DNA of 64,000 bases, taken from assembly GCF_023078835.1 (NCBI RefSeq), contig NZ_CP090898.1, positions 1,862,045 through 1,926,044 on the forward strand, written 5' to 3'. Both the position numbers and the translations under genes were made by a program. The stretch is from Synechococcus sp. NB0720_010 (GTDB taxonomy: Bacteria; Cyanobacteriota; Cyanobacteriia; PCC-6307; Cyanobiaceae). The first letter of the stretch is position 1. Every line of letters begins with the position of its first letter. The notes beneath the pieces were generated by a model, which was not told the origin of the DNA, did not search any database, and saw nothing but the letters and a program-made list of their open reading frames with translations. Below are positions 34,060 to 39,477 of the stretch, one piece after another.

Positions 34060-35115
34060 ATGACGATCGCTGTAGGGCGCGCGCCGCAGCGGGGATGGTT
34101 CGACGTCCTCGATGACTGGCTCAAGCGCGACCGCTTCGTTTTTGTCGGGTGGTCGGGTCTGCTCCTGTTCCCCACTGCCTATCTGGCACTGGGTGGCTGG
34201 CTGACCGGCACCACCTTTGTCACCTCCTGGTACACCCACGGCATTGCCAGCTCCTATCTGGAGGGCTGCAACTTCCTCACCGCTGCGGTGAGCAGCCCGG
34301 CTGATGCCATGGGCCACTCTCTCCTTCTGCTCTGGGGCCCAGAAGCCCAGGGCGATTTCGTGCGCTGGTGCCAGCTCGGCGGCCTGTGGACCTTCGTGGC
34401 CCTGCACGGCGCCTTCTCCCTGATCGGCTTCATGCTGCGTCAGTTCGAGATTGCCCGTCTGGTCGGCATTCGTCCCTACAACGCCATCGCCTTCTCCGGC
34501 CCGATTGCGGTGTTCGTCAGTGTTTTCCTGATGTACCCCCTCGGCCAGAGCAGCTGGTTCTTCGCTCCGAGCTTCGGCGTGGCAGCGATCTTCCGCTTCC
34601 TGCTGTTCCTCCAGGGCTTCCACAACTGGACCCTGAACCCCTTCCACATGATGGGCGTGGCCGGCATCCTCGGCGGCGCTCTGCTGTGCGCCATCCACGG
34701 CGCCACGGTGGAGAACACGCTGTTTGAGGACAGCGAGCAGGCCAACACCTTCAAGGCGTTTGAGCCCACACAGGAAGAAGAGACCTATTCGATGGTCACC
34801 GCCAACCGCTTCTGGAGCCAGATCTTCGGGATCGCGTTCTCCAACAAGCGCTGGCTGCACTTCTTCATGCTGTTCGTGCCCGTCATGGGCCTCTGGACCA
34901 GCTCCATCGGCATCATTGGCCTGGCCCTCAACCTGCGTGCCTACGACTTCGTGTCGCAGGAGATCCGCGCTGCTGAGGACCCCGAGTTCGAGACCTTCTA
35001 CACGAAGAACATTCTTCTGAACGAAGGCCTGCGCGCCTGGATGGCCCCCGCGGACCAACCGCACGAAAACTTCGTCTTCCCTGAAGAGGTTCTGCCCCGC
35101 GGCAACGCCCTCTGA
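34060..35115 (+). CDS. psbD: Photosystem II D2 protein
   Basis: Reaction-centre subunit binding P680, pheophytin and the QA plastoquinone. It has 351 residues from ATG 34060 ([20 protein letters not shown]), the standard length. The QA/iron region has [20 protein letters not shown] and [17 protein letters not shown], with the iron-ligand histidines. The C-terminus [17 protein letters not shown] is complete. psbC normally overlaps the psbD end in the psbDC operon; here a terminator follows 40 bp after the stop, so this is a solitary copy. The open frame upstream of 34060 is non-coding leader. Confidence 0.97.
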
Positions 35116-35185: not shown

Positions 35186-36784
35186 CTAATCGAAGGTCAG
35201 CTGTTCATGGACAAAGCCGCTGGGGTCCCACCAACCCAGATCGGCTGAGCGATAGGCCAGCACGTTGAACATGCCGCGCATGTGGTGATAGCTGATGTGG
35301 CAGTGGAAGGCCCAGATGCCTGGGTGGATGGCATCAAAGGCAATGCGGCAGCTGCCGCCCTTGGGCACCAGCACGGTGTCGCGCATCGGACCGGAGAACG
35401 GCTGCCCGTTGATTTCGATCACCTGGAATTCATGGCCATGCAGGTGCATCGGATGGCCCATCGGGGTTTCGTTGCTGAAGACCATCTCCACCCGTTGTCC
35501 CTCCTCGACCCAGTAGGGATCGCGGTAGGGATAAAAGCGATCGTTGAGGCCCCAGCGGTACTGCGGGGCGGGGCCGGTGAGCGCCACGGGAATGGTGTTG
35601 TCCGCCGGTTTCTTGGGGAGGGGTTGCTGTGCCTTGAGTTGCTTGTCCTGGGTGAAGTCCAGGCGTCCGGTCCACTGCTGGGTTTGCGGGGCCAGGTTCG
35701 GGATCGCCTGTCCGGGCGCTGTACGTAGGACGACGCCACAGCGCAGGTTGCTCTGCTCGCCGCAGGCCAGCAGCGGGAAAACCCCCGGCGTCTCCGGCAG
35801 GCGGATCCGCAGGGTGAGCCGTTGGGCGATGGCCAGCTGGAACACCGAACCGCGGATCGGCTCCACCGGGTTGGCGTCGGTGCGCAGGAGTTCTCCCTCC
35901 AGCTCGCCGAGGTCCAGGAAGAAGTTCATGAAGGCGCTGGCGGCGATCCAGCGAATGGCCACGGTCTCCCCGGGTCGGGCCTCGATCACCTGGGGTGCGT
36001 CCAGGCTGCGCTCGTTGGCCAGCAGGGCGTCATAGACCACATCCGGCAGCATCAAGCGCCCGGGTTTGCGCTGCCAGCTGAAGCTCTCGGCTGCTGCATC
36101 CCATTGCTGCGTAAGCAGGGGCCGAGGCTGCTGCCAATCAAAGTTTTGGAGCGAGCGGGCCATGGCGGTGTCGCCGCCCCGCTTGCCGGAGACGATGTTG
36201 CTGAGGATGGTGTTGGCCGGTGTGAAGCTGAAATCCCTCAGGGTGACCGTGACGGTTTGGTCCGCCCATTGCTCCTGTTCCTCGCTGAGGATCACGAAGG
36301 GCTCAGCGACAAAGCTCTGGGTTTGCAAGCCGTAGTGGGAATGCATCCAGAAGGTGCCGTCCTGCTGGAGCGGGTAATGGATGCGTTGGCGCTCCCCCGG
36401 CGGGATGGGGGGTTGGGTGACATAGGGCACCCCATCCATCGGATTGGGAAGGATCAGACCATGCCAATGAATGGTGGTGGGAACCGGCAGTCGGTTTACC
36501 AGCTCCAGATTGACGCCGGCCTCCCGGCTGGTGGTGTACCCCCGTTCCCCAGTGACCTGTCGAATGCAGCCCCGCTCCACTTGTCGCCCCAGCACGGTGA
36601 TGGGTGCGGTGGTGATTTCCAGAACGGTGGTGGCTGGATTGGTGGGCACCTGGAAGGTGGCCTGGCCGATGAATCGGCTCCAACTGCTCTTGGCTTTGGC
36701 CTGGGCTTGCTTGAGCAGCTCCAGTGCCGTGCCCCCAAAGGCGGCCCCCAGCAGTCCGAGCTGGAGTAAGGCGCGACGACGCAT
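35186..36784 (-). CDS. Multicopper oxidase
   Basis: A 532-residue laccase-like enzyme, exported by a probable N-terminal signal (RRRALLQLGLLGAAFGGTAL). All four copper-binding blocks are present: TTIHWHGLILPNPMDG, FWMHSHYGLQTQ, HPMHLHGHEFQV and WAFHCHISYHHMRGM. The last gives the type-1 copper Cys and His with axial Met. Relatives oxidise phenols, Cu(I), Fe(II) or Mn(II) in the periplasm. Its substrate is not known. It converges on psbD across the terminator. Three-domain length is normal for the family. Confidence 0.93.
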   Translation of the reverse strand: MRRRALLQLGLLGAAFGGTALELLKQAQAKAKSSWSRFIGQATFQVPTNPATTVLEITTAPITVLGRQVERGCIRQVTGERGYTTSREAGVNLELVNRLPVPTTIHWHGLILPNPMDGVPYVTQPPIPPGERQRIHYPLQQDGTFWMHSHYGLQTQSFVAEPFVILSEEQEQWADQTVTVTLRDFSFTPANTILSNIVSGKRGGDTAMARSLQNFDWQQPRPLLTQQWDAAAESFSWQRKPGRLMLPDVVYDALLANERSLDAPQVIEARPGETVAIRWIAASAFMNFFLDLGELEGELLRTDANPVEPIRGSVFQLAIAQRLTLRIRLPETPGVFPLLACGEQSNLRCGVVLRTAPGQAIPNLAPQTQQWTGRLDFTQDKQLKAQQPLPKKPADNTIPVALTGPAPQYRWGLNDRFYPYRDPYWVEEGQRVEMVFSNETPMGHPMHLHGHEFQVIEINGQPFSGPMRDTVLVPKGGSCRIAFDAIHPGIWAFHCHISYHHMRGMFNVLAYRSADLGWWDPSGFVHEQLTFD

Positions 36785-36976
36785 TCGCAGCTGCTGTGCT
36801 GCTGGTTCTCTAGCCAGGGCGGGCGGTGTTGTCGCATCCGCAACGCCGTTCTTGGGTCAGCCTCGATAGGATTTGCGAGATCCGTTAGCAGTGATGTGGC
36901 GGCGCAGAACCCTTCGGGCGGAAGCGTTGCCGGATGCATTGCCGGCTAACAACAACCCCCACAGGAGGAGGTGCCC

Positions 36977-37030
36977 GTGTCCCACAGTTGTAAGAAGCAG
37001 GGTCTGCTGATCGCGGAGAACGCCGGCTGA
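36977..37030 (+). CDS. Possible 17-residue peptide ORF
   Basis: GTG 36977 lies eight bases after a perfect AGGAGG (36963-36968). The encoded peptide is MSHSCKKQGLLIAENAG, ending in TGA at 37030. Strong ribosome sites are scarce in this genome, so its presence is notable. Length is too short for any homology claim. Coding is uncertain. Confidence 0.35.
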   Translation: MSHSCKKQGLLIAENAG

Positions 37031-37086
37031 TTTCGGCGCCTCGTTCCTAGATCAAACGGTTCCGCGTCAGAGCGGACCCGGCGAGA

Positions 37087-37124
37087 GCCCCCGGTTCCTT
37101 TCGAGGAATCGGGGGCATCGTTTT
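37087..37124 (+). terminator. Long UUCG hairpin with short T-tract
   Basis: A 13-bp stem: GCCCCCG/CGGGGGC below and GTTCCT/AGGAAT above (one G-T pair), closing a TTCG loop, then ATCGTTTTG. Read rightward it resembles a Rho-independent terminator. The leftward side has no T-run, so it does not serve the multicopper oxidase side. Confidence 0.65.
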
Positions 37125-37135
37125 GACTGGTGCCC

Positions 37136-38083
37136 TCAGCGTGATTGCGCGGCTCGGCTGAGATCCGGTTGGCGCATCAGCGCCAGGACTCCGACTAGGC
37201 AGGGGATGGCGAGGGTGCAGAGACGAAGCAGCAGCGTCACCGCCAGGGCCTGGGAGCGATCGGCCCCGTAGAGCATCGCCAGGCCAATCGAGGTGGCCTC
37301 ACTGGTGCCCAAACCTGCCGGCAGCAGCGAGATCACCCCGCCGAGGCCGGTCGCGGTGCGGATCACGGCGGTTTGGTGCAGGCTCAGCTCAACGCCCAGG
37401 GCGTGATACAGCGCCACCAGCAGGCCTGCCTCGATCATCCAGCAGACGCAGGCCAGCAGGGTGCCGGCGATCAGGGGCTTGGGTTTCATCAACTGGCGCA
37501 TCCGGCCCATGGCCAGCAGCGCTTCCCGCAGCAGCCGAATCAGGCCGTTCCAGCGTTGATGCAGGGGCAAACTCTCGAGCCAATGCTCCAGGCGCCGCAG
37601 GACCCGCGGGTGGGTCAACACCCAGCCACCGACCCCGAGGACCGCCAGGCCAATCAGCATGGCGATCCAGACCTGCTCCCCAAGGCCCCAGCTGAGCACC
37701 AGTAGCGCACTGGCGAGATCCGCCAGGCGCTCGGCCAAGGTGATGCCCACACCCACGGTCAGCGGGAAGCCGTGGCGCCGCTGCAGCCAGAGGCCGCGCA
37801 CCGCCTCGCCGCTGCGGCCGGGGGCTGCAATCAAGGCCAGGCCTGCGGCGTAGATCTTTGCGGCGGGTTTCAGGGACAGGGGAAAGCCCAGTTGGCGCAG
37901 GTAATAGGACCAGCGCCCGATCAGCACCAGATGGCTACCCAGGCAGATGGCGGGCGCCAGGATCCACCAGCGCCAGTGCAGTTGCCCCAGGGTCGCGCTG
38001 ACCTCCTGGATTCCAAAGGCCGTGGTCAGTCCGAGGTAAATCGCTAGGGCTGCGACCAACCCAAAGAGCCAACGGCGCCGCAT
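37136..38083 (-). CDS. YbhN / lysylphosphatidylglycerol synthase TM-domain family protein
   Basis: A 315-residue membrane protein of the UPF0104/YbhN family with about seven or eight helices. Family stretches are AAPGRSGEAVRGLWL and TATGLGGVISLLPAGLGTSE. Such proteins are proposed lipid flippases or aminoacyl-lipid transfer partners; the tRNA-dependent synthase half of MprF is absent. I start at ATG 38083, which overlaps the stop of the upstream gene by ATGA. An earlier in-frame start (38122) would overlap much more. Confidence 0.85.
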   Translation of the reverse strand: MRRRWLFGLVAALAIYLGLTTAFGIQEVSATLGQLHWRWWILAPAICLGSHLVLIGRWSYYLRQLGFPLSLKPAAKIYAAGLALIAAPGRSGEAVRGLWLQRRHGFPLTVGVGITLAERLADLASALLVLSWGLGEQVWIAMLIGLAVLGVGGWVLTHPRVLRRLEHWLESLPLHQRWNGLIRLLREALLAMGRMRQLMKPKPLIAGTLLACVCWMIEAGLLVALYHALGVELSLHQTAVIRTATGLGGVISLLPAGLGTSEATSIGLAMLYGADRSQALAVTLLLRLCTLAIPCLVGVLALMRQPDLSRAAQSR

Positions 38084-39477
38084 CAGGGAATGAACCGCAA
38101 CTTGCGGGCGGCATAGAGACACATCTGACCCAGGATCAGGCCTTCTTTGACGTGGGCGATGTTCGAGCTCCCGTAGCTGCGCTCTTGGTAGCGAACTGGG
38201 ACCTCCACGATCTTCAGGTTCAACTTGCTGGCGCCAAACAGCAGGTCAAAGTCTCCAAAGGGGTCGAAGTCACCGAAGTAACTGCGACCGGCCTTGAGCC
38301 GTTCGTAGTCGTCCTTCCAGATCACCTTCGTGCCGCAGAGGGTGTCCTTGAGCCGTTGACGCAGCAACCAGGAGAAGGCGGCGGCAAAAAAGCGGTTGGC
38401 TGCCGTGTTCAGCGGTGGCATCGCCTCCCAGCTGCGGGGGTAGACCAGGCGGCAGCCGTTGACGAACTCCCCGCGTCCATCGGCCATGGCCTGGGCGAAG
38501 CGCGGCAGATCCTCCGGCCTGACGGTCAGATCGGCATCGAGGATCATCAGCACATCCCCCTCGGCCTGATCAAAGCCCAGCCAGACCGCATCGGCTTTGC
38601 CCTTGCCGGTCTGGCGGAATTTCTTCAGGCGCATCGGGCCTTGGTAGGTCGCGCAGACCCGCTCGATCTCCTCCCAGGTGTTGTCGGAGGAATGCCCCTC
38701 GACAAAGATCACCTCGGTGAAGCGGCCCAGTTCCGGCAACCGCTCAATCGCCGGTGCGATGTTTCCGGCTTCGTTGCGGGCCGGGATGACCACGCTGACG
38801 CTGGGGTTCTGGCGCTGCTGACGGGCCGGCCGGGCCACCATCCAATGGGTCAGCCCCAGGTTGTCGATCAGCGGCAGTTGGCTCAGCCAACGGTTCGCCA
38901 AGGGGGTGATCAAGGGAATCTGGCGCGGGACCAAGCAGCGCTGGCCCTCTTTGAGCACCTCCCAGCTCGCAAGATCCAGCAGGTTGCGGACGTCGTTGGG
39001 GGTCAGCCAGCTCTCGGGCGGTTGCGGTTGCCGTTGACCCAGGCGCTCGGCGGTCTTCAGTAGCGGTTGCCAGAGCCAATTGTGGAAACTCACCACCAGG
39101 CGTGTACGCGGGTGGCAAAAGGCCTCGAGCCGCTCCAGCACTCCTTGCACGTCCTGCAGCGTGTTCAGGGTGTTCGGCAGCAGGATCACATCGAACGGCT
39201 GGGTTTCGCCGATGGACGCCGGGGTCATCGTCTCGGCGTTGGTCGCCAGGATCCGGAGCTCCGGGTGCCGCTCGCGGGCAACAGCGGCGACATCTGGATC
39301 CAGCTCGATGCCCACCCCATGGGCCGGTTGCAGATGGGCCAGCAGATCGCCGCTGCCGCAGCCCACCTCCAGCACCCGCAGGCCCGGTGGCACCAGCAGT
39401 TGGTGCAGACGCTCCAGGTCGGCGTAATAGGTGCGGTTGCGCTGGCGGAAGTGGATCTGCTGGCTCGGGGCGGTCAT
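38083..39477 (-). CDS. Fusion of SAM-dependent methyltransferase and family 2 glycosyltransferase
   Basis: A 464-residue two-domain protein. The N-terminal half (about 1-220) is a class I methyltransferase with motif I LRVLEVGCGSGDLLAHL and FDVILLPNTLNTLQDV. The C-terminal half (about 225-464) is a GT2 enzyme of the dolichol-phosphate-mannose synthase type: VSVVIPARNEAGNIAPAIER, the DxD site in DVLMILDADLTVRPEDL, and the acceptor region CGTKVIWKDDYERL. It probably glycosylates a polyprenyl phosphate, feeding the GT39 enzymes encoded just upstream. It overlaps both neighbours by ATGA. Confidence 0.88.
   Translation of the reverse strand: MTAPSQQIHFRQRNRTYYADLERLHQLLVPPGLRVLEVGCGSGDLLAHLQPAHGVGIELDPDVAAVARERHPELRILATNAETMTPASIGETQPFDVILLPNTLNTLQDVQGVLERLEAFCHPRTRLVVSFHNWLWQPLLKTAERLGQRQPQPPESWLTPNDVRNLLDLASWEVLKEGQRCLVPRQIPLITPLANRWLSQLPLIDNLGLTHWMVARPARQQRQNPSVSVVIPARNEAGNIAPAIERLPELGRFTEVIFVEGHSSDNTWEEIERVCATYQGPMRLKKFRQTGKGKADAVWLGFDQAEGDVLMILDADLTVRPEDLPRFAQAMADGRGEFVNGCRLVYPRSWEAMPPLNTAANRFFAAAFSWLLRQRLKDTLCGTKVIWKDDYERLKAGRSYFGDFDPFGDFDLLFGASKLNLKIVEVPVRYQERSYGSSNIAHVKEGLILGQMCLYAARKLRFIP

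Follow-up and report, generated by a model that had tools for sequence, protein, structure and literature searches.

The window analyzed here, the whole stretch of 64,000 nucleotides, contains a 351-bp gap (36785-37135) flanked by two ORFs that read leftward, a multicopper oxidase gene at 35186-36784 and a gene at 37136-38122 for a Pfam LPG_synthase_TM protein. The photosystem II gene psbD ends at 35115, 1.8 kb upstream of the RNA described below, and the oxidase gene lies between them. A first-pass annotation had placed in this gap an independent, rightward structured RNA with a short ORF, and its description of the letters is accurate: AGGAGG at 36963-36968 stands eight bases ahead of a GTG (36977-36979), the frame that follows reads MSHSCKKQGLLIAENAG, 17 residues, up to a TGA (37028-37030), and a UUCG-capped stem of 13 pairs (37087-37116) is followed by ATCGTTTT, at a site that a terminator scan also lists. 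Several GC-rich hairpins appear as described when the gap is folded. The larger claim, of an independent RNA with a translated-looking ORF, is also upheld by comparison with relatives, in that a TANNNT box, the ribosome site, start and stop, and stem covariation are all conserved.

From these features we predict a stand-alone rightward unit of ~246 nt at ~36879-37124, with a transcription start expected near 36879 (Table 1). The -10 box is placed by comparison; a scan for a consensus -35/-10 pair found none. The terminator scan lists four sites in 701 bases (two places, each twice) versus a mean of 0.6 in shuffled sequence, and the strand over 36860-37130 folds better than 200 of 200 dinucleotide shuffles (z -3.46).

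Table 1. Features of the predicted rightward unit and of the nearby psbD gene, in window positions.
Feature	Position	Strand	Basis or remark
psbD (photosystem II D2)	34060..35115	+	Pfam Photo_RC for 34063-35112
-10 box TAGGAT (TANNNT)	36867..36872	+	model position kept in 65 of 74 distinct family copies
5' hairpin	36884..36950	+	GTTAGC 36884-36889 pairs with GCTAAC 36945-36950; inner stem continues
Ribosome site GGAGGAGGTG	36964..36973	+	sequence; 71 of 74 distinct family copies
17-codon ORF, GTG start, TGA stop, MSHSCKKQGLLIAENAG	36977..37030	+	family comparison
Long hairpin, 5' arm coding	37000..37079	+	predicted for the window; homologous helices in distant relatives
Long hairpin, outer pairing	GGGTCTGCT 37000-37008 with AGCGGACCC 37071-37079	+	
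Long hairpin, inner pairing	CGCGGA 37012-37017 with TCCGCG 37061-37066	+	
Alternative 3' hairpin GGTTCCGC/GCGGACC	37058..37078	+	inferred; expected when a ribosome keeps the ORF open
Terminator: stem with GA/A inner loop, then TTTT	37080..37124	+	terminator scan; helix 7

Used as a blastn query, the gap matched 26 of 60 relatives, which fall in 8 of 36 genera; identity over the matched parts is 72 to 81% in the seven other genera of the family. A covariance search among relatives, as the first-pass annotation had proposed, was made with a model (R1) built from 25 sequences; it found matches in 39 of 59 genera and in 203 of 400 family genomes, and for genomes of good quality the figure was 146 of 251. 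The window's own genome has one match, and with the five best candidates per genome scored, two matches were obtained in four of the 203 matched genomes and one in each of the remainder. Among the family genomes without a match are incomplete genomes as well as complete but small genomes (1.6 to 1.9 Mb), the small ones being, to judge by size, probably Prochlorococcus. R1 was applied to 77 of 102 family loci, leaving out repeat fetches, one cut-off locus (L016), and weak, split, or second-copy matches (L077, L082-L085, L111, and L112), and this gave 74 distinct copies, chosen by the model and not by their ORF. At one of the omitted loci (L111, genome G080), a second, weaker copy lies ~5 kb from the main one, at ~1519-1776 on the minus strand; its ribosome site is gone and its frame stops after two codons, and much of the 3' part remains.

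The earlier proposal depended on stems and an ORF that relatives share, and both are conserved. When the family alignment is fitted to R1, a procedure that favors structure, 97.5% of cells are paired, and 27 of 49 pairs have both partners changed in at least one copy. None of 500 shuffles attains these values, and with partners shifted by one to three columns pairing is 38 to 50%. The unfitted alignment (A1, from which L018 is omitted) has both sides changed in 16 of the 49 predicted pairs. By helix, the 5' hairpin (helix 1) has 95.4% of cells paired and both-sided change in 12 of 13 pairs, the long hairpin (helices 3-5) has 97.6 to 98.2% paired and 9 of 19 pairs changed on both sides, and the terminator (helix 7) has 99.9% paired.

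Weak R1 matches outside the family were taken as loci L101-L110 and aligned. L110 (E 0.097) was dropped because no such element was visible in the locus, and L109 was omitted from alignment A3. Of 59 class genomes, 12 contain an exact pattern drawn from the distant matches, and none contains the reversed pattern. A second model, R2, comprises 16 distant sequences and none from the family; it finds a match in 112 of 120 genera and in 201 of 242 class genomes, or in 188 of 225 when only those of good quality are counted, so conservation reaches beyond the picocyanobacteria, the scope originally proposed. Within the window, R2 gives a single match at E up to 1, covering 36948-37124 on the plus strand (E 2.3e-9); since the model was built without family sequences, the window element is homologous with the distant ones. 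R2 misses some family genomes that R1 matches, for example, G134 and G156. With laxer filters, 29 of 40 genomes chosen for weak or missing matches had a match at E of 1 or below; several of these matches lie near E 0.2 and are probably due to chance.

R2 was also run on 41 distant loci, a biased sample made up of the 30 best R2 matches and 11 earlier loci, which held 39 distinct copies. Here 98.0% of cells are paired, and both partners have changed in 18 of 45 pairs, which none of 500 shuffles attains; with shifted partners, pairing is 32 to 55%. In helix 2, where one arm is coding, all 7 pairs show both-sided change. At the 3' ends of L170 and L174, an unrelated long hairpin takes the place of the usual terminator. 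Four further loci (L176-L179) keep, mid-locus, the ribosome site and the start of an ORF of 22 to 28 aa, with DSSK in three of the four; their 3' structured part is unrecognizable, and in two of them the ORF is closely followed by another, short stem that resembles a terminator. Because these loci keep the ribosome site and ORF start without a recognizable 3' structure, the structure appears not always to be needed, and they speak against a role that is purely structural.

The ORF is 17 codons long in 73 of the 74 distinct family copies, starting with ATG (41) or GTG (33) and ending with TGA (68), TAG (4), or TAA (2). The exception, L025, has a one-base deletion that cuts the ORF to 10 codons, and its surrounding RNA is kept. 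All 39 distinct distant copies likewise have an ORF, which encodes 23 aa in 36 copies, 24 aa in two, and 17 aa in one, with stops TAA (24), TAG (13), and TGA (2); the ribosome site AGGAGGTGATG occurs in 32 of the 39, and six distant loci (L104, L159, L161, L168, L173, and L175) also have an ORF of only 17 codons. In short and long forms alike, the ORF runs up one arm of the long hairpin and stops near the apex. The distance from start to GGGTC among 46 distinct distant ORFs is 23 nt in 40, 26 nt in four, and 20 nt in one, with one unmeasured; the measured indels therefore keep the frame. An accidental ORF is thus disfavored, since the stop position is fixed with three stop types and the indels are frame-keeping.

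A comparison of silent with coding substitutions, suggested at first pass as a check on the 17 codons, gave no evidence of protein-type selection in the family: among single-base codon differences in 52 distinct 17-codon ORFs, the silent fraction was 0.209 in frame versus 0.298 and 0.255 in the shifted frames. For 32 distinct 23-codon distant ORFs it was 0.329 in frame versus 0.230 and 0.240, a signal driven mainly by codons 9-15 (0.478 versus 0.220 and 0.126); these fractions, in both sets, are descriptive only because sequence pairs are not independent. The distant values are some sign of protein-type selection. N-terminal residues around SSK also recur among the distant relatives, and third positions, too, are invariant in some distant codons (GGT, CTG, and GCT in 32 of 32 ORFs). 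In the family, constraint seems to fall on RNA pairing and on translation as such more than on the peptide.

When the ORF is held unpaired in folding calculations, the 3' arm forms a small hairpin in five of five family sequences (the window, L013, L017, L022, and L024), and four distant sequences give various refolds with no single conserved one. Covariation lends the alternative 3' hairpin weak support, with 98.1% of cells paired versus 97.1% in shuffles and columns shared with the long hairpin. A start-codon hairpin, GCCCAUG/CAUGGGU, predicted in 12 distant sequences, where it would compete with GGGUC/GACCC, was left out of the main model, as 0 of its 7 pairs change on both sides.

Neighboring genes were counted for elements in which the ORF could be located automatically. 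In 24 of 57 distinct distant elements psbD lies upstream in the same orientation, always within 500 nt (45 of the elements have at least 500 nt of upstream sequence); it does so in 26 of the 72 distinct family elements as well, at less than 500 nt in 18 cases (58 have at least 500 nt). A pterin-4a-carbinolamine dehydratase gene, identified at L101 as Pfam PF01329, lies downstream on the same strand for 23 of the 57 distant elements (20 within 500 nt) and 3 of the 72 family elements. Neither gene was seen on the opposite strand in the 57 distant and 72 family elements. The order psbD, RNA, pterin dehydratase looks ancestral, and the oxidase gene of the window looks like an insertion because in other members, L004 and L013 among them, psbD directly precedes the RNA. 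At L101-L103, the pterin dehydratase gene starts within ~25 nt of the terminator T run on the same strand, a spacing that would allow read-through control there.

At gathering score, an Rfam search of the window matched only a tRNA, elsewhere in the window; with the limit relaxed to E 10, the gap gave three matches (E 0.89 to 1.2), each scoring far under the gathering threshold of its family, and nine distant loci gave three weak matches, none to a cyanobacterial family. The gap was unmatched in phage records, as were two exact patterns in viral contigs. The element outside the marine lineage is very probably ncl0160, first identified in Synechocystis 6803, the match being by published description and not by sequence (PMC4734099). 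The portion of that paper drawn on here describes 83 homologs spread across the phylum, with a ribosome site, an ATG or GTG start, a conserved peptide of 23-25 aa, and the stops TAA (47), TAG (34), and TGA (2); it gives no function, and its authors excluded the marine lineage. Our distant set, with ORFs of 23-24 aa, has the same stop preference, and 38 of its 39 distinct copies fall within the published peptide length; the phylum-wide spread holds for the window element as well, and so, among its family copies, does the ATG or GTG start with a ribosome site. As its 17 codons, shared by 73 of 74 family copies, differ from the 23-25 aa described, we file the window element as a variant or homolog of ncl0160 and not as a plain member. 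A search of mostly open papers for the name ncl0160 returned PMC4734099 alone.

Other published RNAs were compared through the relevant parts of their descriptions. Yfr103, likewise structured, occurs in marine Synechococcus and some Prochlorococcus, and its strain range overlaps that of the element. By description it measures 290-328 nt (PMC5069720) versus ~246 nt from the expected 5' end here, and it has seven paralogs in strain CC9605 versus at most two matches per listed genome in our search; it was set aside. Yfr6 and Yfr9 of Prochlorococcus resemble the element in length (240-290 nt), internal short ORF, and strong structure and were likened by their own authors to dual-function RNAs; their ORFs measure 33 and 44 aa, and Yfr6 was detected in MED4 and SS120 and not in WH 8102 or MIT 9313 (PMC1242208, PMC2518516); both RNAs were set aside. 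Dual-function RNAs of the SgrS/SgrT type also join a small ORF and a structured part on one RNA (PMC2518516, PMC5126843), whereas here the ORF sits inside the main hairpin. No further match to the element was found in the parts of PMC3219970, PMC5126843, and PMC12589917 that were used. SyR1 and SyR2, which adjoin fabF and apcC, were also set aside. The marine 17-codon form, the covarying structure, and the psbD neighborhood were not found in the literature searched, mostly open papers; transcript lists elsewhere may include the RNA. Attenuators of the trp leader type also have a short ORF within a hairpin whose fold depends on the ribosome. The window element differs from them in that the gene downstream of its terminator reads leftward, leaving none on the same strand.

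Sequence comparison thus finds the promoter box, ribosome site, short ORF, long hairpin, and terminator conserved together. We tentatively read the RNA as the picocyanobacterial branch of a wider cyanobacterial RNA that acts as a translation-gated regulatory or dual-function RNA. A ribosome would load on the strong site, run to the stop near the apex, and melt the long hairpin; the freed 3' arm would refold into its own small hairpin, and this refolding would alter the action or lifetime of the RNA. The signal would lie in translation itself more than in the exact peptide. Against this gating stand the structure loss in L176-L179, the protein-type signal in distant ORFs, the weak covariation of the alternative hairpin, and the varied distant refolds. 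It is nonetheless, in our estimate, the likeliest single mechanism, followed by a plain mRNA for a small protein.

Such an mRNA, which we consider somewhat unlikely, would encode 17 aa here and 23-24 aa in most distant relatives, and its stems would serve stability or translation control. The conserved ribosome site, start, frame, and stop fit it, as do the recurring residues of the SSK region, kept in three of the four loci without the 3' structure, and the silent fraction in distant codons 9-15 (0.48 versus 0.22 and 0.13); it is harder to reconcile with the missing excess of silent changes in the family, the invariant distant third positions, the tail lost in six distant loci, and the ORF of only 10 codons in L025. 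If, instead, the RNA was ORF-independent and purely non-coding, which of all these readings we hold least probable, the dominance of RNA-level constraint in the family would follow naturally, but an ORF of 17 codons, opened by either of two start codons and closed by any of three stops, would hardly persist in 73 of 74 distinct copies, nor would measured indels keep the frame.

The gene order suggests a further possibility: situated between psbD and the gene after it (pterin dehydratase, for instance), the RNA may be an attenuator or processing element that acts in cis and that became stand-alone in the window's lineage. Same-strand psbD upstream (24/57 distant, 26/72 family) and same-strand pterin dehydratase downstream (23/57, 3/72), with neither gene ever on the opposite strand, speak for it. 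We regard it as improbable all the same, given that the downstream gene is oppositely oriented in the window and many relatives, that the RNA has its own conserved -10 box, and that it persists without either neighbor at many loci. Fixed stop, frame, and covarying long hairpin are, for their part, features that a ribosome-binding decoy would not need, and they make it very improbable that the RNA merely ties up or senses free 30S subunits through its near-perfect ribosome site; that site, which reads GGAGGAGGTG in 71 of the 74 family copies and AGGAGGTGATG in 32 of the 39 distant ones, is presumably a close match to the 16S 3' end.

No function for this RNA was stated in the literature searched, mostly open papers. 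A mostly single-copy structured RNA in 112 of 120 sampled genera that is absent from Rfam represents a clear gap. The psbD neighborhood hints that the target may be photosystem II supply. In its broadest form, which we offer as rather speculative and unlikely as it stands, the RNA would be a translation sensor of most cyanobacteria. A passing ribosome would switch it between two folds and in this way adjust the supply of photosystem II (D2) or some other core process; the peptide would be largely a by-product, and its tail could therefore be lost in several lineages. The comparative map marks the codons, stems, and stop positions to change, and the frequent adjacency to psbD makes the link to photosystem II testable.
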